Positions 22,111 through 31,770 of a stretch of DNA of 64,000 nucleotides are shown one piece after another (position 1 is the first letter of the stretch; every line of letters begins with the position of its first letter). The notes beneath the pieces were generated by a model. It had not been told where the DNA came from. It worked only from the letters and a program-made list of their open reading frames with translations, and ran no database searches. Source of the DNA: Croceivirga sp. (GTDB lineage Bacteria > Bacteroidota > Bacteroidia > Flavobacteriales > Flavobacteriaceae); assembly GCA_028284285.1 (NCBI GenBank), contig JANQSA010000055.1, positions 62,001 through 126,000 of the forward strand, given 5' to 3'. A program made the translations under genes and the position numbers.

Positions 22111-22413
22111 ATGGATGTAACTTTTGAATACGACGGAATTCAATCCAGCAACCGCCTGGAAATGATGATTTTAGAAAAGTTAAACAAACTTGAGGCCAAA
22201 TATGACTTTATAGTACGGGCCAGAGTATTTCTCAAAACCTCAAATACAAGTTCGCCCGAAACCGGAAAAATTTGTAAAATTCAGCTAAGTGTTCCGGGGC
22301 CTCTTCTTTTTGCAGAGTCCAATCTTTCCGGCTTTGAGGCCGCAATCTCTGAAACCATTAATGATTTGGATCGCCAATTAGTGAAGAAAAAAGAAAAGAT
22401 GAAAGCCCATTAA
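22111..22413 (+). CDS. HPF/RaiA-family ribosome-associated protein, short form
   Basis: A 100-residue protein with the beta-alpha-beta-beta-beta-alpha order of hibernation-promoting factor: VTFEYDGIQSSNRLEMMILEKLNKLEAKYDFIVRARVF split across the first helix and strands, a PETGKICKIQLSVPGP strand pair and a final helix ending in KKKEKMKAH, which supplies the basic ribosome-binding tail. It would bind the 30S decoding region and inhibit or preserve ribosomes in stationary phase. It lacks the C-terminal dimerisation domain of long HPF. A strong hairpin follows 61 bp downstream. Confidence 0.85.
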   Translation: MDVTFEYDGIQSSNRLEMMILEKLNKLEAKYDFIVRARVFLKTSNTSSPETGKICKIQLSVPGPLLFAESNLSGFEAAISETINDLDRQLVKKKEKMKAH

Positions 22414-22740: not shown

Positions 22741-23007
22741 TTACGCTTCCTTTTCTTTGATCTTACGTTCTACAATGGCCATAGCATCCTGAACGGTCTG
22801 CATGCCATCCATGTCTTCATTCTCCAACATGATATCAAAAGCATCCTCTACATCCAGTACAATATCTACCAGGTTAGCTGAGTTAATATTCAATTCTTGT
22901 GTAAAGTTACTATCCAATTGAATGTTAGTAACTGATACATCTTCAGGCAAATAATTCACTATTATTTCCTTTAGTTTTGGATAAATCTCTCCGTTTTCTT
23001 TTTTCAT
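22741..23007 (-). CDS. acyl carrier protein of the type III PKS operon
   Basis: An 88-residue helical acidic protein of ACP size. The phosphopantetheine serine is Ser43 in LNINSANLVDIVLDVEDAF; the usual DSL tripeptide is changed to NSA, while the helix II pattern (LVDIVLDVED) is kept. It would carry acyl intermediates for the ketosynthase directly upstream, whose stop is 3 bp from this start. It is the last gene of the seven-gene operon; a different ACP outside this window must serve housekeeping fatty acid synthesis. Confidence 0.88.
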   Translation of the reverse strand: MKKENGEIYPKLKEIIVNYLPEDVSVTNIQLDSNFTQELNINSANLVDIVLDVEDAFDIMLENEDMDGMQTVQDAMAIVERKIKEKEA

Positions 23008-23010
23008 AGC

Positions 23011-24282
23011 TTAAGCGGAATACGCCTTAAAAATAACACAGGCGTTGACATCACCAAAACCAAAACTGGCTTTTGCGATAACCTTTGGTGTAAAAGGGAT
23101 GGTTTGTTGAAGAATTTTAGAGGGGTGCGCCCAATTTAGGATATCCGGATGGATCACCTTGCAATTCAATGTGCCAAACAAACGTCTTTTTTTGAATTGC
23201 AGCACGGTTCCAACACATTCAATACTACCTGATGCAGCCAGGCAATGCCCTATATGACCTTTAAAGCTATTGACATACGGAAAATCTTCCGAAGAGCGAT
23301 TGAGTGCCTTGGCCCAGTTTTCAATTTCGATTGGGTCGCCCTGAGTCGCCGTAAGATGGCCATTAACCGCATCCACCACATCTGAGGTAATCCCTGAAAT
23401 GGCAATAGCCTGTTGAATACATCGTTGCACACCCTCTTTGTTGGCGGCAGTCATACTGCCTCCCTGACGTTGTCCTCCGCTGTTGACAAATCCTCCCAGT
23501 ACTTCGCAATAAATTGGGGCTCCTCTGGCTATTGCACTATTCAAAGATTCCAACACCAAGGCTCCTGCACCACTGCCGGGAACAAAACCGGAGGCGGTAG
23601 CACTCATAGGTTGACTTGCTTTTTCCGGTTCCATGTTAAATTTTCGGGGCAGGATGCGCATAGCATCAAAACCTCCCCAAACATAAGGGCCACTATCGCT
23701 ACAACTCCCTACCAGTATTCGGGTAGCTTTGCCGGAAGCGATACGATCAAAGCCCATGATCAATGCCTCTGTACCCGTGCTGCACGCAGAAGAATTGGTG
23801 GTAACCTGATTTCCAACCCCCAACTTTCCCCCTAAAAAAGCGCTAATACCGCTGGCCATAGTTTGCGCTACCGCAGTACTTCCCAAACGCCTTACCTCGC
23901 CTCTGTCTACCTGGTAGATAGCTTCCCGAAACTTATCCACCCCCAAAACACCGGTTCCGAAAACAATACCACTGTTCCAATCCGGTTCCTCTTCACGCGC
24001 TTCCAAACCAGCATCCGTCCAGGCATCTACACCGGCGATTACGCCATATATTAACCCATTGGCATTTAGTCCTTTACGCTCAACTTTGGTGAAGTATTCA
24101 TTTAAGTCTAAACTTTGAATGTTCGGACTTCCTGCAATTTGGCATGAAAAATTTAAATCTTCTAATTGTTTGTGGAAAGTAATACCCGATTTACCTTTTG
24201 AAAGCGCATCGGAAAAAGTGGATACCCCTGTACCGTTGGGTGCACACACGCCTAAACCGGTTACTACCACCCTATTGTTCAT
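23011..24282 (-). CDS. beta-ketoacyl-ACP synthase (KAS II-like) of the type III PKS operon
   Basis: A 423-residue thiolase-fold condensing enzyme. The full Cys-His-His triad is readable: Cys167 in NSSACSTGTEAL, His309 in NGHLTATQGD, and His346 in KGHIGHCLAASG with the supporting Lys341. The motif spacing matches FabF-type decarboxylating condensing enzymes, so it should extend ACP-bound acyl chains with malonyl units. It diverges from canonical FabF around NAHGTST, which here reads NGHLTAT. It lies between the dehydratase (1-bp gap) and the ACP (3-bp gap), forming a minimal chain-building set for the lipid starter of the polyketide synthase. Confidence 0.9.
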   Translation of the reverse strand: MNNRVVVTGLGVCAPNGTGVSTFSDALSKGKSGITFHKQLEDLNFSCQIAGSPNIQSLDLNEYFTKVERKGLNANGLIYGVIAGVDAWTDAGLEAREEEPDWNSGIVFGTGVLGVDKFREAIYQVDRGEVRRLGSTAVAQTMASGISAFLGGKLGVGNQVTTNSSACSTGTEALIMGFDRIASGKATRILVGSCSDSGPYVWGGFDAMRILPRKFNMEPEKASQPMSATASGFVPGSGAGALVLESLNSAIARGAPIYCEVLGGFVNSGGQRQGGSMTAANKEGVQRCIQQAIAISGITSDVVDAVNGHLTATQGDPIEIENWAKALNRSSEDFPYVNSFKGHIGHCLAASGSIECVGTVLQFKKRRLFGTLNCKVIHPDILNWAHPSKILQQTIPFTPKVIAKASFGFGDVNACVIFKAYSA

Positions 24283-24283
24283 A

Positions 24284-24718
24284 CTATGATGCTTTTAGCA
24301 TTCCTGAGATCCGGCCTTTACACACTAACTCGTCTTTGCTATTCATCATCCGGACCGCACATTTTAATTTTTGAAACCGAAAATAGATTTTCCTGGAGAT
24401 AACCGTTACCGTCTCCTCCGGATATACCGCTTGTAGAAACTCCATTTCTGTGCTCGTGAGGGCAATGGTTGGATTTGCCAGGGTAGTTTCTTTCATCAGG
24501 TATATTCCCAGACACACCAGGCCAATCTGTGCACAGCATTCCGTAAGTAAAACCCCTGGCGTAACCGGAAACGCTTTAAAATGCCCCTGGTAGAACTCGG
24601 AAGTAGACCGAAAGGTATATTTTCCCACTACGCCATCATCCGTAATCTCTTCCAGCTTATCTACAAAGAGAAAGGGCTGTGTATAAGGCAACTGGAGTAC
24701 GATTTGTTCTTTTGTCAT
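24284..24718 (-). CDS. FabZ-like 3-hydroxyacyl-ACP dehydratase (hotdog fold)
   Basis: A 144-residue single hotdog domain. Catalytic residues are in place: His46 in QGHFKAFPVTPGVLL (FabZ consensus GHFPxxPVMPG) and Glu60 in LTECCAQIG. It should remove water from 3-hydroxyacyl-ACP made by the ketosynthase and a ketoreductase. Its start codon overlaps the stop of the upstream SDR gene (shared base 24718), and the ketosynthase begins one base after its stop. No separate ketoreductase is encoded in the operon, so that step may be borrowed from housekeeping FabG or performed by the SDR. Confidence 0.88.
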   Translation of the reverse strand: MTKEQIVLQLPYTQPFLFVDKLEEITDDGVVGKYTFRSTSEFYQGHFKAFPVTPGVLLTECCAQIGLVCLGIYLMKETTLANPTIALTSTEMEFLQAVYPEETVTVISRKIYFRFQKLKCAVRMMNSKDELVCKGRISGMLKAS

Positions 24719-25509
24719 TAGCGTAAACTTTCCCCTCCATCGACTTTTATGACCGTCCCGTTAATCCATTTGGCCTCGGGCCGGGTAAGCAAATAGACTG
24801 TATTCGCTACATCCTCCGGGAGGGTAAGTCGTCCGTAGGGATTTCGTTTCAACGTTTCCGCTATTAAGTGTTTATAGCCGGGAATTTTGCGGAACGATGG
24901 GGTATCTGTAACACCCGCTTGAATACAATTCGCTTTAAGCCCTATTGGTGCAAATTCCAAGGCAATACTTCTGACCATCGCTTCCAAGCCGGCTTTTGCG
25001 GTGGAAACAGCAGCGTAATTGGGCCATGCCTTGCTACTTCCTTCACTGGTGAAGGCAATTATCCGGGCATCCCTGGCAAACAACTCTTGTACTACCAACT
25101 GTTGCGTCCATTCGTACAAACTGGTCGCCATGGCACCTATGGTTATCTCAAAATCAGTACGATCCAGAACACTATCTCCTGTGGAATACATAGGTTTTAA
25201 ATTTCCTTTGGCAATACTGTGTAGCAACACCTTAATCCTTCCCAAGCCAAAATGGCCTTTAAGCTCAGCAGTAATTTCTTTTTGTCTTTCTTTATGGGTA
25301 GCATCACTGTTGAAGGATATCAAATCGCTTCCCATTTGTCGGATGGCTTTAAACGCATCCTCAATACTTTCCAGACCTGCTCTCCTATCCCGGTGCACAA
25401 TACAAAGATCAAAACCCTCATTCGCAAGTTTTCGGGCCGAGGCTAATCCTAAACCACTGCTACCTCCCAAAATTAACGCCACCGGTCTTTTTGCTTGCAT
25501 TACTGCCAT
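24718..25509 (-). CDS. short-chain dehydrogenase, enoyl-ACP-reductase-like
   Basis: A 263-residue NAD(P)-dependent Rossmann protein. The nucleotide loop is GGSSGLGLA (residues 15-23). The active-site tyrosine and lysine are Tyr165 and Lys172, spaced Y-x6-K as in FabI/FabL enoyl reductases rather than Y-x3-K of ketoreductases; LLHSIAKGN also resembles the FabI HSIA motif, and the C-terminus ends INGTVIKVDGG. It probably reduces 2-enoyl-ACP in the dedicated chain-building pathway of this operon. Its N-terminus overlaps the end of the type III PKS gene by 10 bp. Confidence 0.85.
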   Translation of the reverse strand: MAVMQAKRPVALILGGSSGLGLASARKLANEGFDLCIVHRDRRAGLESIEDAFKAIRQMGSDLISFNSDATHKERQKEITAELKGHFGLGRIKVLLHSIAKGNLKPMYSTGDSVLDRTDFEITIGAMATSLYEWTQQLVVQELFARDARIIAFTSEGSSKAWPNYAAVSTAKAGLEAMVRSIALEFAPIGLKANCIQAGVTDTPSFRKIPGYKHLIAETLKRNPYGRLTLPEDVANTVYLLTRPEAKWINGTVIKVDGGESLR

Positions 25510-26558
25510 TCAATTAAAACGCGCTGTGCGGAGAATCCCGGTCCAAAACTCAGCATAAGCCCTTGTTCTCCCGAAGCAATTGTGCGGTTTAAAAAACGCT
25601 CCAAAACATAGAGCACGGTAGCACTACTCATGTTGCCAAATTTTTGCAATACCTGCCGGGTATCGTCAATATTTTTCCCCATCTGACCAAACAAATGTTC
25701 GACGGTTTGGATGATTTTTTTACCGCCCGGATGAAAAATAAAATGATTTACTTTCTCCATGGTAGAATCCAGACCGGTTAAAAAGGGTTGGGTTAGTTTT
25801 GGAAAGTGATCCGCGATCATTTTAGGCACATCGGGGTCCAGTATCATTTTTAAACCGGTATTGGTTAAATCAAACCCCATCAGGTGGGTTGCGTTAAAGA
25901 AATGATACATCCCCTCTCCTACTATTGTAGGCCCGTTGTCCGTAGTTTTTGAAGAAAGCAGCACACAAGCCGCACCATCTCCGAAAAGTGCTGCACTAAC
26001 CATATTAGCCATTGAAAAATCATTGAGTTGAAAAGTGGCCGTTGGACTTTCCACCGCAATAACTGCTGCCCGTTTTTCCGGGTTGGCTCGTAAAAAGTTG
26101 GCGGCATAAATAATTCCGGAAACACCGGCAGCACACCCCATTTCCGTAACGGGAAGACGCACCACATCCTGCTTGAGTCCCAATTCGTTTACCAAATAGG
26201 CATCCAACGAAGGAATCATAATACCGGTGCAGCTTACGGTGATGATATAATCCAGACTATCACTTTGCCAATTCTCTTGCTCCAAAGCCGATTGCAGGGC
26301 ATTACGGCCTAATTGTTTTACCCCACGGACATAGCTTTCATTTTTGGCTTCAAAGGAAGTCGCCGTAAACACTTCCTCAATGGACATGATCCCAAATCGT
26401 TTCTCCACCCCAGAGGCTTCAAAGATCTTTATGACCTTTCTACGATAGCGTTCTTCCTGTCCGAAGAGCCAGGCATCCACATAAGGGATGATCTCTTCCG
26501 TAGTCCTGCTATAAGGAGGAAGTGCTTTCGCAACACTAACAATTTTTGCTGTTGTCAT
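25500..26558 (-). CDS. type III polyketide synthase (chalcone/stilbene synthase-like)
   Basis: A 352-residue homodimeric condensing enzyme. The catalytic triad of the family is intact: Cys142 in TEMGCAAGVSG, His276 in FHPGGKKI and Asn309 in FGNMSSATV; the GFGPG-type loop near the C-terminus reads SFGPGFSA. Type III PKSs extend acyl-CoA or acyl-ACP starters with malonyl-CoA and cyclise to resorcinols, pyrones or phloroglucinols. Since the gene sits in one operon with ACP, ketosynthase, dehydratase and enoyl reductase on one side and a methyltransferase and flavoprotein on the other, I infer a fatty-acyl starter and a methylated, oxidised alkyl-aromatic product. Specificity of ring closure cannot be read from sequence by eye. 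Confidence 0.93.
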   Translation of the reverse strand: MTTAKIVSVAKALPPYSRTTEEIIPYVDAWLFGQEERYRRKVIKIFEASGVEKRFGIMSIEEVFTATSFEAKNESYVRGVKQLGRNALQSALEQENWQSDSLDYIITVSCTGIMIPSLDAYLVNELGLKQDVVRLPVTEMGCAAGVSGIIYAANFLRANPEKRAAVIAVESPTATFQLNDFSMANMVSAALFGDGAACVLLSSKTTDNGPTIVGEGMYHFFNATHLMGFDLTNTGLKMILDPDVPKMIADHFPKLTQPFLTGLDSTMEKVNHFIFHPGGKKIIQTVEHLFGQMGKNIDDTRQVLQKFGNMSSATVLYVLERFLNRTIASGEQGLMLSFGPGFSAQRVLIEWQ

Positions 26559-26570
26559 ATACCTAATTTA

Positions 26571-27272
26571 TCAAACTGGTTGGATAATCCACAAATAACG
26601 AAAAGCCCATTTCCATCGTATGTTGTGCCTGTAATGATGCAAAGGTTGGGCCCAGGCGTTCAATTCCTGTTTCTGAAAGCCCCGTCGTATAGATACTAAT
26701 CCATCATTCCTGGCCACAGGGGAGCGTAAAAAAACGAAACTGAACATCTTAAACAGTAGGTGTGCTATTGGACTGCGCTGCAAATCATTGATCACTACAC
26801 CTAGCTTAGCCAGGGTGGCACATTGTTTTAAAAACTGCGGGATTTCAGATTCATCAATATGGTGTAAAGTCAAAGTGCAAAGCAAAATATCACAATTGAA
26901 GGTATCGCCTGCTGCAAATACATCTGTATTGTGGTAGGTAATGTTTGCCATCCCCTCGGATTTTTCCCGGGCAATCGCTAAAATGTTTTCATTCACGTCT
27001 ACCCCAACCAACTTTACCGCAATTCCTCTTTCTTGCAGTCTTTGCGCTAGTTTCCGAAGCATAAAACCATCGCCACAACCGACATCTAAAATCGTATACG
27101 ATTTTTTAGGATGGTTCTTAATCAGTTGATCTACTGCGGAGAAAGAAATGGCCAGACCTCCCAGCCAACGATTGCAACGATTAATATCTGCCAAAGCCAA
27201 TTGTAGCGCGATGATATCCAAATCCGGGGCATCCATCAGCTCCATTTCCGTACTTCTAATGGAAACATCCAT
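26571..27272 (-). CDS. class I SAM-dependent methyltransferase of the type III PKS operon
   Basis: The ATG at 27272 gives 233 residues; longer in-frame extensions upstream overlap the flavoprotein and read as its shadow. Motif I is ILDVGCGDGF (residues 61-70), followed by VGVDVNENIL (motif II acidic residue) and CDILLCTLTLHHI. The C-terminal part is hydrophobic (LLFKMFSFVFL, RWKWAFRYLW), consistent with acting on a lipid substrate at the membrane. The start overlaps the flavoprotein stop as TAATG, implying translational coupling. By analogy with srsB of Streptomyces griseus it may methylate the alkylresorcinol-type product of the adjacent PKS. Confidence 0.88.
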   Translation of the reverse strand: MDVSIRSTEMELMDAPDLDIIALQLALADINRCNRWLGGLAISFSAVDQLIKNHPKKSYTILDVGCGDGFMLRKLAQRLQERGIAVKLVGVDVNENILAIAREKSEGMANITYHNTDVFAAGDTFNCDILLCTLTLHHIDESEIPQFLKQCATLAKLGVVINDLQRSPIAHLLFKMFSFVFLRSPVARNDGLVSIRRGFQKQELNAWAQPLHHYRHNIRWKWAFRYLWIIQPV

Positions 27273-28396
27273 TACACTAAGATAGGTTTTCCGTGAGTAC
27301 GTTGCACAATAGCCTGTACTATTTTTTCCTGGGTAGCCATTGTCCGGATGGCCCATTGTGAAATGGCAGGTTGTAATAGCAACGCCTGAATTTGCCTTCC
27401 AAAGAACAACCTGGACTGGAAATGGCTTTTCCAAAGACGTGCGTATCCCTTTTCCATAGCTTCCCGTCCGTATGCCTTTTCCGCAAAAAACTTAATCACA
27501 CTTTCAGCCGCTAATTTCCCGGCATGAATTGCCATTGCCATACCATTCCCGCAAAGCGGATGAATTAGCCCGGCGCTGTCTCCACACATAAGAATGTGGT
27601 TTTCTACCGCCTTCTTTTTGGAAAAAGAAATCTGTGCAATACTCAAGGGTTTTTCAAATATCGGACGGGCATTTTCCAGAAAATGGTTCAAAAAAGGGTT
27701 TTGCGCCACCACCTTTGTGTTAAATTCCCGGACTCCGGATTGGGCTTTGAAGCTATTATAGTGTGCCAAATAACAAAAATTGACCGCGCCATCCTCCGTC
27801 ATGGATAACCCCCCATATCCACCGGGAAAGCTGTGAAGTGCTACGGTATCCTGAGGAAAATCAGGGTAGTCATAATGGCATTTTATACCCAGCCATGGTG
27901 ATTTTTTTTGCATAAAACCGCGATGCAACGCTTTGTCTATATTAGAACGCTTTCCAAAAGCCCCGATGACCACTTTGGTGGAATAGACCTCATTTGATGT
28001 CCGAACCCTAAAAAGATCCCGTTCGAAGGTTGTTTCCAAAGCCGTTTCAAATCTAAAAACAACTCCGGCATCCTTCGCCAATTGAAATAACGCCTCGTCC
28101 AGAACATAGCGACTTATGCCAAATCCTCCCAGGGGTAAAACCGTTTCCAAATGCTTTCCATCTGCAGCGCTGACCACCAAGGTGTCAATACTCTTGGCTC
28201 CCAGTGCTGACAGAGATAACCCCATAAACTCCAGGAGCGGAGCAACCTCTTTGGAGACATACTCTCCACAAACTTTGTGATTGGGATAGGGGTTTTTCTC
28301 GAGTACCACAACAGGAATGCCGGACTTAGCCATAACTATAGCGGCTGTTAAACCCGCCAATCCCCCACCTACAATAATCACCTCTGTCTTTTGCAC
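27272..28396 (-). CDS. FAD-dependent oxidoreductase (geranylgeranyl-reductase/hydroxylase family), first gene of the PKS operon
   Basis: A 374-residue flavoprotein. The Rossmann loop VIIVGGGLAGLTAA is at residues 6-19, an ELEK-type ribose contact follows (VVVLEKNPYPNHKVCGEY), and the second FAD motif is MCGDSAGLIHPLCGNGMAMA. This matches the geranylgeranyl reductase / PHBH-like monooxygenase superfamily. In the srsABC phenolic-lipid locus the third component is a flavoprotein hydroxylase, so ring hydroxylation is the leading guess; a reductase acting on a lipid chain is the alternative. It starts at 28396, just after the terminator of the OmpA gene, and is therefore the likely first gene of its own transcript. 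Confidence 0.85.
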   Translation of the reverse strand: MQKTEVIIVGGGLAGLTAAIVMAKSGIPVVVLEKNPYPNHKVCGEYVSKEVAPLLEFMGLSLSALGAKSIDTLVVSAADGKHLETVLPLGGFGISRYVLDEALFQLAKDAGVVFRFETALETTFERDLFRVRTSNEVYSTKVVIGAFGKRSNIDKALHRGFMQKKSPWLGIKCHYDYPDFPQDTVALHSFPGGYGGLSMTEDGAVNFCYLAHYNSFKAQSGVREFNTKVVAQNPFLNHFLENARPIFEKPLSIAQISFSKKKAVENHILMCGDSAGLIHPLCGNGMAMAIHAGKLAAESVIKFFAEKAYGREAMEKGYARLWKSHFQSRLFFGRQIQALLLQPAISQWAIRTMATQEKIVQAIVQRTHGKPILV

Positions 28397-28426
28397 TGCT
28401 CTAAGATACAGGATATCACAAAAACA

Positions 28427-28452
28427 AAGTCCCGGATTGCGGCCCGGGACTT
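28427..28452 (-). terminator. intrinsic terminator after the OmpA-type lipoprotein gene
   Basis: AAGTCCCGG (28427-28435) pairs with CCGGGACTT (28444-28452). Read on the minus strand, the 9-bp stem is followed by TGTTTTTGTG. It lies between the OmpA stop at 28488 and the flavoprotein start at 28396 and separates the two units. Confidence 0.75.
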
Positions 28453-28487
28453 CAATAGATATTTGTGTATGTCTGTTTGTATATTAC

Positions 28488-29177
28488 TTAATTGGTATTT
28501 TGGTAAGCCTCTTGTTTTAGGGATTCACTGGCCACAATGGCTAACTCTACCCTTCTGTTTTTGGCCTTTCCTTCGGAAGTTTCATTACTGGCCCTGGGTT
28601 GGGTCTCGCCGTACCATTTTGTAGTAAAGCGGTTGGCACTGATTCCTTTGGCGATCAGGTACTGCGTTACTGATTCTGCCCGTTGCTGGGATAGATTCCA
28701 ATTGTATTCCTCGCTGCCAGCACTGTCTGTGTGCCCTTCTATCAAAATACTGGATTTAGGGTATTCCTGGAAGATCCCGGCTAATTTATCCAAGGTCGCT
28801 GCAGAGGCACCTTTTACATCGGATCTGTTGGTGTCAAAAAACACTCCTGCATCCTGGGTAAAGGTAACATTGATCCCCTCACCTACCCGTTGCACTTCCG
28901 CTCCGGGGATCTCTTCTTCTATACGTTCTGCCTGACGGTCCATCCTGCTCCCGATATATCCCCCGGCTGCTCCTCCCACTACGGCGCCTATAATGGCACC
29001 AAGAGCGGTATTTCCTTTGCCAACGTTGTTCCCTATTACACCTCCTATTACGGCGCCCCCTGCAGCACCTATAGCACCGCCCTTTTGAGCATTGTTTGCA
29101 TTTTTAACGGCGTTGCAACTCAACAACAGGGACAAGGCCATTACTACGGATATCGTTTTTTTAAAAGTTCTGATCAT
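28488..29177 (-). CDS. OmpA-family lipoprotein with glycine-zipper domain
   Basis: The ATG at 29177 gives 229 residues. The signal peptide ends at the lipobox LLLSC. Residues about 30-80 are a glycine-zipper region (GGAIGAAGGAVIGGVIGNNVG) that can insert in membranes, and residues 105-225 are an OmpA-like peptidoglycan-binding domain with the diagnostic ILIEGHTDSAGSEEYNWNLSQQRA and NRRVELAI split over the domain. It anchors the outer membrane to peptidoglycan. Its start is 5 bp before the end of the lipocalin-like gene, indicating an operon. Confidence 0.93.
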   Translation of the reverse strand: MIRTFKKTISVVMALSLLLSCNAVKNANNAQKGGAIGAAGGAVIGGVIGNNVGKGNTALGAIIGAVVGGAAGGYIGSRMDRQAERIEEEIPGAEVQRVGEGINVTFTQDAGVFFDTNRSDVKGASAATLDKLAGIFQEYPKSSILIEGHTDSAGSEEYNWNLSQQRAESVTQYLIAKGISANRFTTKWYGETQPRASNETSEGKAKNRRVELAIVASESLKQEAYQNTN

Positions 29178-29181
29178 AACA

Positions 29182-29670
29182 CTAGTTTTTTCTTGAAAAT
29201 TCATATACAATGGTAACCATCTCACCATCCACGTTTGCATTGGAACGCAACACCATATTTTGTTCGGTTAAATTTGAGATATTCAGACGATACCCCCTAC
29301 CTCCGGAAATATCTTTGTACTTCTCGTCAATAAATTTAAATTGTAATTGGCTGCTGTAGTTTTGCTGAGGTTCCACTACGGACCATCGAAAGCGGCGATC
29401 CCCACCGTTACAAAGTGTGCTGGACGCTATGGTGTACCTGCCCGTACTGTTATTGTCCCGGAAAAACCATTCACTGCCCTCAAAACAAATATCGCGGGCA
29501 TCTTCAAAAAGTACCGATTGAAAATTTCCCGTATTGTTTTCATACGAAATATTATCCAATGACCAGGTGCCGCTAAACAGGTTACGTTGGGTTCTGGCGG
29601 ACTTACTTACGGTGCATGAAAGCAGTAAACATGCCGTAGTGAGTAGTAAAATGCTAGTTTTTTTCTTCAT
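29182..29670 (-). CDS. lipocalin-like lipoprotein
   Basis: A 162-residue lipoprotein, MKKKTSILLLTTACLLLSC, with lipobox Cys19. Mature residues 34-160 start with the lipocalin-type GTWSLDNISYEN and continue with regular beta strands (FEGSEWFFRDNNSTGRYTIA, FRWSVVEPQQN, LQFKFIDEKYK), fitting an eight-stranded barrel. It is likely bound to the outer membrane facing the periplasm; the ligand is unknown. It is first in the operon with the OmpA-type protein and has a recognisable promoter. Confidence 0.75.
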   Translation of the reverse strand: MKKKTSILLLTTACLLLSCTVSKSARTQRNLFSGTWSLDNISYENNTGNFQSVLFEDARDICFEGSEWFFRDNNSTGRYTIASSTLCNGGDRRFRWSVVEPQQNYSSQLQFKFIDEKYKDISGGRGYRLNISNLTEQNMVLRSNANVDGEMVTIVYEFSRKN

Positions 29671-29701
29671 AGGAAATGGATTAGTTTTTGAATATACGTA
29701 G

Positions 29702-29732
29702 CAAACTTAATTTTTGACTTCGACATTTTCAA
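29702..29732 (-). promoter_or_regulatory. promoter of the lipocalin-ompA operon
   Basis: On the minus strand a TTG at 29732-29730, 20 bp of spacer, and TAAGTTTG at 29709-29702 (exact TAnnTTTG). The ATG at 29670 lies 31 bp downstream. Confidence 0.55.
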
Positions 29733-29793
29733 TTCTCCTATAAAAATCGATAAAATAAATACGCTTTGATATTGGTTGGTACCCTACGCTGCC

Positions 29794-31770
29794 TTAGTAC
29801 GCCAATAGTTCCAAAAGCTCCTTTTTAAAGCGTTGTTTCGGTAGAAAATGCATTTCCAGGTTTTTTGCAAAAGGTACCGGTGTTTCTAAACTCCCCACTC
29901 GTTTTACCGGGGCATCCAAATGTTCAAAACAGTTTTCCATAACCAGAGCAGCAATATCGCTGGCCACCCCTCCAAACAGCGTATCCTCCTGAAGAATGAG
30001 TAGTTTCCCGGTTTTTCGAACCGATGTGTATACTGTGGTTACGTCCAGAGGCATCAAAGTCCTCAAGTCTATCAGATCTGCCTGGATTTCCGGGTGGTTC
30101 TTCAGTACTTCCAAAGCCCAGTGTACTCCGGCACCATAGGTAACAATGGAAACGGTATTTCCTTCTTTTAGCAAATTAGCCTTTCCAAGGGGAAGGGTAT
30201 AGTAATCTGTAGGCACCTCCCCATAAATACTGCGATACAATCCTTTATGTTCAAAAAACAATACCGGATTGGGATCATTAATACTCGTAGCCAACAAGCC
30301 CTTGGCGTCCTCGGGAAATGCCGGATACACCACCTTTAGTCCCGGGGTTTTGGTAAACCAGGCTTCATTCGTCTGTGAATGAAAAGGGCCTGCCCCAACG
30401 CCGCCGCCACAAGGCATCCGAATGACCACATCAGCATTTTGTCCCCAGCGATAATGTATTTTGGCCAAATAATTGACGATAGGGTTAAATCCACTACTCA
30501 CAAAATCCCCAAATTGCATTTCTACCACAGACTTCACTCCCTTTATGGAGAGTCCCATGGCCGTGGAGATAATGATGGACTCGCAAATAGGGGTATTGCG
30601 CACCCGGCTTCTGCCAAATTCTTTGGTAAACCCTTCGGTAATTTTAAAAACCCCGCCGTACTCTGCGATATCCTGCCCCATAATGATCAGATCATCGTGA
30701 CGTTGCATGGACTGTTGTAAACCTTCCGAAATGGCATCTACAAAGCGAATGTTTTTAGTATTCTCATTTGGATTAATGTGCTCATTATTATGATTTTGAA
30801 AAACATCATCTAATTCAGCACTCAAATTAAACTCGGGATCTGCCGCAGAAAAAGCAATTTCCAGATTGGCATTGATTTCCGTAGTAATTTCGGTTTTAAG
30901 CTTATCGATCCATTCCTGATCTATCACGCCTTTCTTTAACAAAAAAGCCTCGTAATTTGCTATAGGATCTTTGGCAGACCACTGTTTCAGGAGTTTTTCG
31001 GGTACGTATTTTGTTCCGCTGGCTTCTTCATGTCCACGCATTCTGAACGTCTTAAATTCCACCAGCACCGGCCGGGGCCGTTTCCGCAAGGCAGCACAGA
31101 GCTCTTTTATCTTGGTGTGCACTTCCAGAATATTATTGCCATTAATAACCCGGCCCTCCATACCGTACCCCTTGGCCCTGTCTGCCAAATCCTCACAATT
31201 ATACTGCTCTTTGGAAGGTGTAGACAGTCCGTATCCATTGTTCTCGATACAGAATAGCACCGGTAGGTTCCAAACAGATGCTACATTTAGCGCTTCATGG
31301 AAATCCCCTTCGCTGGTAGCACCTTCCCCGGTGAAAACCGCAGTCACCCGTTTCTTTCGTCCCAGGGCATCGGCCAGAGCTATTCCATTGGCCACTCCCA
31401 ATTGAGGGCCTAAATGTGAGATCATCCCCACTATCTTATGCTCCTGGCTACCGAAATGAAAACTTCTATCCCTCCCGTTGGTAAAGCCATTTGCTTTCCC
31501 CTGCCATTGGGCAAACAAACGATCCAAAGGGACATTACGGGTGGTAAAAACACCCAGGTTACGATGCATGGGCAGTATATACTCCGACGATTTCAACGCT
31601 TTTGTCACCCCAACGGCAATCGCCTCCTGCCCAATTCCACTAAACCATTTGGATATCCTACCCTGTCGCAATAAGATCAACATTTTCTCTTCTATCATAC
31701 GGGGTTTAAGCATTCCCTCATATAGCTCGATCAATGTTTTATGGTCAAGATTCCCAATATGGTAGCGCAT
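29794..31770 (-). CDS. 2-oxoacid dehydrogenase E1, fused alpha and beta subunits (branched-chain type)
   Basis: A 658-residue thiamine-diphosphate enzyme. The alpha half (1-330) holds the ThDP-binding segment FTGEGATSEGDFHEALN ... ENNGYGLSTP, with MHRNLGVF and RMRGHEEA; the beta half (340-658) holds MGQDIAEYGGVFKITEGF and MQFGDFVSSGFNPIVN, and ends DAPVKRVGSLETPVPF. The fusion of both subunits into one chain is common in Bacteroidota. It decarboxylates branched 2-oxoacids (or pyruvate) and passes acyl groups to lipoyl E2, encoded elsewhere. In this phylum the branched route also feeds iso-fatty acid synthesis. ATG at 31770; the divergent oxygenase gene starts 82 bp away. Confidence 0.92.
   Translation of the reverse strand: MRYHIGNLDHKTLIELYEGMLKPRMIEEKMLILLRQGRISKWFSGIGQEAIAVGVTKALKSSEYILPMHRNLGVFTTRNVPLDRLFAQWQGKANGFTNGRDRSFHFGSQEHKIVGMISHLGPQLGVANGIALADALGRKKRVTAVFTGEGATSEGDFHEALNVASVWNLPVLFCIENNGYGLSTPSKEQYNCEDLADRAKGYGMEGRVINGNNILEVHTKIKELCAALRKRPRPVLVEFKTFRMRGHEEASGTKYVPEKLLKQWSAKDPIANYEAFLLKKGVIDQEWIDKLKTEITTEINANLEIAFSAADPEFNLSAELDDVFQNHNNEHINPNENTKNIRFVDAISEGLQQSMQRHDDLIIMGQDIAEYGGVFKITEGFTKEFGRSRVRNTPICESIIISTAMGLSIKGVKSVVEMQFGDFVSSGFNPIVNYLAKIHYRWGQNADVVIRMPCGGGVGAGPFHSQTNEAWFTKTPGLKVVYPAFPEDAKGLLATSINDPNPVLFFEHKGLYRSIYGEVPTDYYTLPLGKANLLKEGNTVSIVTYGAGVHWALEVLKNHPEIQADLIDLRTLMPLDVTTVYTSVRKTGKLLILQEDTLFGGVASDIAALVMENCFEHLDAPVKRVGSLETPVPFAKNLEMHFLPKQRFKKELLELLAY

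Follow-up and report, generated by a model that had tools for sequence, protein, structure and literature searches.

Within the window, a stretch of Croceivirga sp. DNA of 64,000 nucleotides, seven genes at positions 22741-28396 probably couple a type III polyketide synthase (PKS) triad to an acyl-ACP module of discrete enzymes dedicated to it, giving a methylated, redox-modified phenolic lipid of the alkylresorcinol type. The seven-gene operon is real, and its genes are co-directional: in order of transcription, seven open reading frames on the minus strand encode a flavoprotein, a methyltransferase, the type III PKS, an SDR, a dehydratase (DH), a ketosynthase (KS), and an acyl carrier protein (ACP). 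The junctions measure -1 nt (flavoprotein/methyltransferase), +12 nt (methyltransferase/PKS), -10 nt (PKS/SDR), -1 nt (SDR/DH), +1 nt (DH/KS), and +3 nt (KS/ACP), in agreement with the single-strand operon with overlaps or gaps of 12 bp or less given in a preliminary description. The features are listed below, with Pfam matches (all above cut-off) and NCBIfam scores against their cut-offs in parentheses.

28425..28454, minus strand: terminator-like hairpin separating the operon from the gene upstream (12-pair stem, then a T run; a consensus match only)
27272..28396, minus strand: FAD-dependent oxidoreductase with a PHBH-like fold, geranylgeranyl-reductase (GGR)-like family (FAD_binding_3)
26571..27272, minus strand: SAM-dependent methyltransferase (Methyltransf_25; PRK06202, 153 vs 243 bits)
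25500..26558, minus strand: type III PKS, Cys142-His276-Asn309 (Chal_sti_synt_N and _C)
24718..25509, minus strand: accessory FabL-like SDR of enoyl-reductase type, Tyr165-x6-Lys172 (adh_short_C2; best NCBIfam match FabL, 159 vs 328 bits)
24284..24718, minus strand: FabZ-like 3-hydroxyacyl-ACP dehydratase (FabA-like domain; FabZ, 58 vs 113 bits)
23011..24282, minus strand: FabF-like ketosynthase, Cys167-His309-His346 (ketoacyl-synt N and C; FabF, 246 vs 494 bits)
22741..23007, minus strand: acyl carrier protein, Ser43 within an INSA motif (PP-binding; best ACP model, 59 vs 66 bits)

The methyltransferase starts at ATG 27272, not at the upstream TTG of the reading-frame list, and shares 1 nt with the stop codon of the flavoprotein; the flavoprotein start is listed as GTG at 28396. 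Terminator-like sites in the region number 13 against 7.9 expected, and the promoter scan (5 found, 10.6 expected) was uninformative. There is no ketoreductase among the seven genes and, by Pfam, neither an acyltransferase nor a gene able to load an acid onto the ACP.

Conservation of the operon and its association with the PKS

A PKS ortholog is present in 48 of the 149 Flavobacteriaceae genera sampled (about one third). The KS follows it, with orthologs in 47 of the 48 PKS-positive and 0 of the 101 PKS-negative genomes (co-occurrence P values ignore relatedness), and lies within 5 kb in 45 of the 47 co-occurring genomes. The earlier proposal that a fatty-acid-like module is tied to the type III PKS is thereby borne out, as is the gene order when searched across relatives. 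We compared loci from the best 80 of 574 relatives, hence the closest ones; 72 are contig-complete, and contig ends cut the other eight. Among these best 80, the seven-gene order is identical in 61 of the 72 complete loci and the other 11 are without the SDR only, so the operon is a conserved locus and not a set of chance reading frames. KS and ACP are kept in all 72. The operon has its own ACP, as first described, and a phosphopantetheinyl transferase (PPTase) gene lies downstream of it in 23 of the best 80 loci of the 574.

In genome G144 the operon comes in two parts, with the break between SDR and DH, which we count in favour of the proposed reading. Exceptions were also found. Genome G138 has the flavoprotein, methyltransferase, PKS, and SDR; a genome-wide KS search (E <= 1e-60) found none, and the 8.6 kb past the SDR contain neither DH nor KS nor ACP. 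No DH was detected in G118 (locus L196), and L180 and L181 gave no ACP match. As a separate observation, 20 genomes in the family sample, each of them PKS-positive, encode a small membrane protein; in the eight where it is unlinked, its neighbourhood has no match to the operon genes or the PPTase.

The catalytic residues are intact, as the preliminary description held. In alignments of the window with loci from the best 80 of 574 relatives (one locus gives two rows in the DH set), we found invariant PKS C142-H276-N309 (81/81 rows), KS C167-H309-H346 plus K341 (75/75), DH H46/E60 (79/79), SDR Y165-x6-K172 (68/68), and ACP S43 (61/61). The Tyr-x6-Lys spacing of the SDR is one that we take to be of the enoyl-reductase type.

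The PKS belongs to the type III polyketide synthase class, with PF00195 and PF02797 over cut-off and a Cys-His-Asn triad, and it is the only PKS of the genome to pass the PF00195 cut-off. Its best solved relatives by profile and fold are Pks11 and CylI, at 25-30% identity; its structure model is weak at residues 174-187, and we therefore make no cavity argument. Two narrower identities were rejected: DarB/StlD dialkylresorcinol (flexirubin) ketosynthase (NF005293, 22.6 bits against 450) and DpgA, the 3,5-dihydroxyphenylacetyl-CoA synthase, which is the best NCBIfam match but scores 174.8 bits against a cut-off of 425 (NF042429).

In trees built from 21 of the loci among the best 80 of 574 relatives (short searches, no bootstrap, long branches), the KS-linked PKSs form one clade (SH-aLRT 98), and the KS is tied to this clade, not to type III PKSs found elsewhere in the phylum. 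For the PKS tree, 17 hand-picked loci with distant PKSs were added, one of which (L166) gave no row; 15 of the remaining 16 come from 123 lower-scoring genomes and one (L161) from another search, and for three of them the genome has a stand-alone KS at a different place (G245, G223, G271). Dedication of the module to the PKS is well supported, and the two very likely act in one pathway.

Composition of the module and the tailoring enzymes

The best solved relative of the SDR is 3oic, an NADPH enoyl-ACP reductase. An enoyl-reductase-like SDR is present, as originally proposed, but it is not a needed part of the module; we call it accessory because it is missing in 11 of the 72 complete loci from the best 80 of 574 relatives. 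The view of the module as a chain builder likewise stands in part: ACP, KS, DH, and the SDR are there, but the ketoreductase is missing from the operon, so that full cycles would depend on a FabG encoded outside it; one gene exceeds the family cut-off.

The flavoprotein is an FAD oxidoreductase, but the hydroxylase role first assigned to it is uncertain. It has a hydroxylase fold and the GD motif; the Asp of the DG motif is replaced by Phe, Tyr, or His in 80/80 rows (best 80 of 574 relatives), and the best NCBIfam match is the geranylgeranyl reductase family (TIGR02032, below cut-off at 121.5 vs 158.8 bits). Foldseek with the AlphaFold model (pLDDT 87) places GGR-like, halogenase, and hydroxylase folds at the top with similar scores, which fits a hydroxylase and a reductase alike.

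Known systems and a proposed pathway

Streptomyces srsABC combines a type III PKS, a methyltransferase, and a flavoprotein hydroxylase, and our operon has a type III PKS, a methyltransferase, and a flavoprotein that may or may not be a hydroxylase. Besides srsABC, the closest described triad is that of the hierridin (hidABC) and planctomycete alkylresorcinol operons, in which a methyltransferase and an FAD oxidoreductase are described as preceding the type III PKS (PMC8086630, PMC10896814). By gene content, our operon shares this triad, the PKS again being its last member; compared by description only, it differs in that the flavoprotein comes first (the first two genes are swapped) and a KS-DH-SDR-ACP module follows. 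The PKSs of the planctomycete operon make alkylresorcinols, with no such module in the account given (PMC10896814). The Streptomyces srs and Mycobacterium smegmatis polyketide quinone clusters, likened by description only, also pair a type III PKS with modifying enzymes to give methylated polyketides or quinones; a dedicated acyl module does not figure in the description consulted (PMC5916927).

A dedicated chain-building system beside a type III PKS is described for Azotobacter ars, in which a fatty acid synthase passes ACP-bound chains directly to the PKSs (PMC6274091). There it is a multidomain type I synthase (ArsA) beside two type III PKSs; our operon, with its separate type II proteins and single PKS, is not an ars-type system. 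Type III PKSs described as accepting ACP-bound starters include germicidin synthase (GCS), SCO7671, ArsB/ArsC, and CylI (PMC6274091, PMC8086630). CylI, among the best folds for our PKS, differs in that its supply comes from type I PKSs and a loading ACP, with no discrete KS-DH-SDR-ACP operon.

In the pathway that we propose, a PPTase would activate the ACP, on which KS, DH, usually the FabL-like SDR, and an outside FabG as ketoreductase would build or extend an acyl chain. The acyl group would move from the ACP to Cys142 of the PKS, and malonyl-CoA extensions and cyclisation would give a resorcinol, resorcylate, or pyrone, which the methyltransferase and flavoprotein may methylate and oxidise (or reduce). 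Hand-off from the operon's ACP to the PKS appears likely, and the chances of an alkylresorcinol-derived product are about even; like flow direction, ring type, product, and location, the hand-off is predicted from sequence. Gene content, intact active sites, conservation, co-occurrence, the single clade of linked PKSs, the downstream PPTase genes, PKS-free modules, the type III PKSs known to take ACP-bound starters, the alkylresorcinols of the planctomycete operon, and the Pks11 and CylI fold matches support the pathway; the SDR-less loci, G138, G118, L180 and L181, the lack of a ketoreductase, the module-free planctomycete PKSs, the low PKS identity (25-30%) with the weak stretch of its model, and co-occurrence P values uncorrected for relatedness count against it.

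PKS-free modules and alternative readings

DH, KS, and ACP, often with an SDR or PPTase, are also found without a type III PKS. Examples of what adjoins such stand-alone modules are a FeeM-like (FeeM-family) gene in L178, a GNAT gene in L169 and L170, and a hexapeptide transferase gene in L185; by type, the neighbours include FeeM-like, GNAT, and glycan-assembly genes. Acyl-ACP is described as the substrate of FeeM-kind synthases (PMC8762209). The fee-type clusters are alike in passing acyl-ACP to a dedicated acceptor, but in them an amino acid N-acyltransferase, rather than a type III PKS, plays this part. Because they stand beside other acyl-accepting enzymes, the PKS-free copies look like a portable acyl-ACP cassette, and they suggest that Bacteroidota have a general part for acyl supply.

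Each module gene resembles a fatty-acid synthesis enzyme, and KS, DH, SDR, and ACP might be spare housekeeping type II fatty acid synthase copies beside the PKS by chance. This is highly improbable: the FabF, FabZ, FabL, and ACP models all score below cut-off (values listed above), the KS lies a long branch away from two FabF rows (short search, no bootstrap), and the KS is missing from the 101 PKS-negative genomes. On the scores and the branch, we reject housekeeping membership. Flow could also be reversed: the PKS would make a DpgA-like aromatic acid or CoA ester, which would be transferred to the ACP for elongation by KS, DH, and SDR, much as aromatic starters are elongated on an ACP in aryl polyene synthesis. 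The DpgA match of the PKS fits this idea, as does retention of KS and ACP in 72/72 complete loci (best 80 of 574 relatives), which late elongation would need. We nonetheless judge it quite unlikely, given the DpgA cut-off of 425 bits, the lack of a gene to load an acid on the ACP, the module copies without a PKS, and the alkylresorcinols that described relatives of the triad make from fatty starters (PMC10896814).

It is also unlikely that the two parts work as parallel branches, with the PKS primed by general acyl-CoA or acyl-ACP and the separate chain of the module attached later or modifying another pathway molecule. Planctomycete PKSs are described as working in C. glutamicum without such a module (PMC10896814), and stand-alone modules adjoin acyltransferase-type genes; the operon, however, has no acyltransferase, and its KS goes with this PKS clade rather than with the remaining type III PKSs in the phylum.

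A broader reading, taken as a whole, could equally prove right or wrong: a Bacteroidota cassette (KS, DH, ACP, often SDR and PPTase) would be joined to various acyl acceptors: in Flavobacteriaceae and several further families the type III PKS triad, and elsewhere FeeM-like, GNAT, or glycan-assembly enzymes. In the PKS version the private carrier would deliver its chain directly to the PKS, matching with discrete enzymes what the type I synthase does in Azotobacter, and the small membrane protein would act with the product. If transfer from ACP to PKS is correct, a whole type III PKS clade has a discrete acyl module and carrier of its own; chain transfer from an ACP to a type III PKS could then be tested directly, and a route to programmable phenolic lipids would open.

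The open-licence literature yielded no characterised product for the locus, in line with the preliminary description, and none for any Flavobacteriaceae type III PKS cluster; a lead on Zobellia phloroglucinol gave a brown-algal statement only. The pathway would imply an uncharacterised lipid or quinone across roughly one third of the Flavobacteriaceae genera sampled, a family in which an antiSMASH survey describes type III PKS clusters as the second most frequent class, at 9% (PMC7440613).

Layout and conservation of the operon

The preliminary description proposed a seven-gene, single-strand operon with intact catalytic residues, and both points are confirmed. Gene calls give, on the minus strand, a flavoprotein, a methyltransferase, a type III polyketide synthase (PKS), an enoyl-reductase-type SDR, a FabZ-like dehydratase (DH), a FabF-like ketosynthase (KS), and an acyl carrier protein (ACP), with junctions, 5' to 3', of -1, +12, -10, -1, +1 and +3 nt. 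The PKS Cys-His-Asn (81/81), KS Cys-His-His (75/75), DH His/Glu (79/79), SDR Tyr-x6-Lys (68/68) and ACP Ser (61/61) are invariant in the aligned rows, the window counted in.

Features in and around the operon
22111-22413 (+): ribosome hibernation factor-like gene (Pfam Ribosomal_S30AE), just downstream of the operon
22741-28396 (-): seven-gene operon
28401-28408 (-): TATCTTAG, about 16 nt past a TTTG
28425-28454: terminator-like hairpin separating the operon from the upstream gene
28488-31770 (-): upstream OmpA-like, 162 aa putative lipoprotein, and 2-oxo acid dehydrogenase E1-like genes, named by likeness only

TATCTTAG and the TTTG resemble the Bacteroidota promoter consensus; TATCTTAG ends 4 nt ahead of the listed GTG start, so a start site there would give almost no leader.

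The preliminary description also suggested searching for the gene order elsewhere. A scan of genome contigs for relatives, from which the best 80 of 574 were kept as named loci, yielded 70 loci in 22 named genera (including Maribacter, Arenibacter, Zobellia, Aquimarina, Salinimicrobium, and Flagellimonas) and a further 10 with no genus name; the nearest PKSs, 81% identical, belong to two MAGs, one a Croceivirga and the other an unclassified Flavobacteriaceae. Among the 72 of these best 80 that are not cut by contig ends, 61 share the window's order and 11 lack the SDR alone. Placed on the PKS tree, these absences require 7 changes, and well-supported branches make at least 4 of these unavoidable. 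The chromosomal place of the operon is mostly kept, since 70 of the best 80 loci carry an upstream-gene homolog, a median 2.6 kb ahead of the PKS; homologs of the OmpA-like, lipoprotein, and E1-like genes lie upstream in 70, 69, and 66 of the 80, and likenesses of the Ribosomal_S30AE gene downstream in 31.

Association of the module with one PKS clade

The tie between the KS-DH-SDR-ACP module and its PKS clade is the strongest result of the analysis. Across 149 sampled Flavobacteriaceae genomes, one per genus, 49 have PKS matches (E <= 1e-20), of which 48 are orthologs (identity >= 61%) and one (genome G072) is a distant PKS of 30% identity. KS matches (E <= 1e-60) occur in 47 of the 48 ortholog-bearing genomes and in none of the other 101 (hypergeometric P = 3e-38, relatedness ignored). 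The two genes are at most 5 kb apart in 45 of the 47 and on separate contigs in G066 and G144.

Of 345 genomes sampled across the phylum, 154 have PKS matches (E <= 1e-20), 31 scoring above 630 bits and the rest below 250 bits. KS matches (E <= 1e-50) occur in 35, namely those 31 and four others whose KS is 45-49% identical and has no PKS alongside. In the PKS tree, the 34 sequences of this type, including that of G138, form one clade (SH-aLRT 98), and 16 distant phylum PKSs, none KS-adjacent, fall outside it; the long branches among these 16 call for caution. PKS-linked rows of the KS tree represent two changes of state, and a single origin may also fit. Four f78 loci have the operon, with PKS identities of 49-52%.

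The preliminary description suggested that the module could build an alkyl starter on a private ACP for the PKS. This interpretation is supported in part: the association of module and PKS clade stands; we infer the hand-off from ACP to PKS, and the product. Several observations count against the module reading, however: G138, the sole ortholog-bearing genome of the 48 without a KS match (E <= 1e-60), has flavoprotein, methyltransferase, PKS, and SDR (L153); no DH was detected in G118 (L196); the SDR is repeatedly absent; two f78 loci, L180 and L181, have no ACP match; and planctomycete PKSs reportedly need no such module, yielding pentadecyl- and heptadecylresorcinols when expressed in C. glutamicum (PMC10896814).

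By sequence, the closest solved relative of the PKS is Pks11; by fold, Pks11 and CylI come out best. Identities are 25-30%. ACP-bound starters are reported for GCS, SCO7671, and ArsB/ArsC (PMC6274091), and for CylI (PMC8086630). The flavoprotein-methyltransferase-PKS triad resembles hierridin and planctomycete operons as these are described, and srs-homologous clusters are reported to make methylated polyketides and polyketide quinones (PMC5916927). No product of this locus was found in the open-licence literature, which could miss a description published elsewhere. In the flavoprotein the glycine-rich start and the GD motif are retained, but the Asp of its DG motif is replaced in every row by F, Y, or H (23, 56, and 1 of 80 rows); it may plausibly be a hydroxylase.

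Module copies without the PKS

A class-wide KS-profile search found the KS in 21 of 295 genomes. Sixteen are PKS-linked (seven from the window's family, by adjacent PKS/KS coordinates, and nine read as loci) and five are not (L168; L177 with L178; L179; L184; L185); another family of the phylum has the KS in 4 of 92 genomes (L169-L171, L186). L168-L171, L177-L179, and L184-L186 all carry a KS-DH-ACP set without an adjacent type III PKS, except that only KS and ACP are seen in L184, whose contig begins at the KS with nothing upstream in view. Gene order varies, with the ACP first in L177 and L179. Where neighbours were read (L171 falls outside this survey), the module of L178 adjoins genes for a FeeM-family N-acyltransferase and a KAS III; in L169 and L170 its neighbours are GNAT-family and GT2 glycosyltransferase genes; in L185 it stands next to hexapeptide-transferase, PhyH-type, and glycosyltransferase genes; and L186 has a GNAT-like gene, named by likeness only. 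FeeM-type N-acyl amino acid synthases are reported to use acyl-ACP (PMC8762209).

Among the 80 named loci (the best 80 of 574 relatives), 23 have a phosphopantetheinyl transferase (PPTase) gene after the ACP (one checked by family search), as does L175. PPTase genes are also present in L177 and L185, in L168 as a hit of 24.9 bits, just under the cut-off of 25, and, by likeness only, in L176, L179, and L184. The window's operon has no ketoreductase (KR); elsewhere its genome has one FabG over cut-off and one PPTase. In Salinimicrobium nanhaiense a second SDR with KR-like Tyr-x3-Lys spacing lies between SDR and DH (L061:11976-12758), and G144 carries the operon in two parts, on separate contigs, divided between SDR and DH (L151, L152). 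Together with the PKS-free copies and associated PPTases, these cases fit a portable acyl-ACP cassette of KS, DH, and ACP, often with an SDR or PPTase.

An ORF of about 143 aa (e.g., L076:13854-14285), membrane-protein-like from hydrophobicity judged by eye, matches no Pfam or NCBIfam family. It comes after the ACP in 29 of the 80 named loci (the best 80 of 574 relatives), all 29 lacking the PPTase. Of the 149 family genomes, 20 have a match, and every one of these is PKS-positive (P 5e-12, with relatedness ignored); in eight the ORF lies away from the operon. A search of the window's genome found none (E <= 1e-8). L175 has both the PPTase and, by likeness, the ORF, followed by a second methyltransferase (L175:12096-12818) 33% identical to that of the operon.
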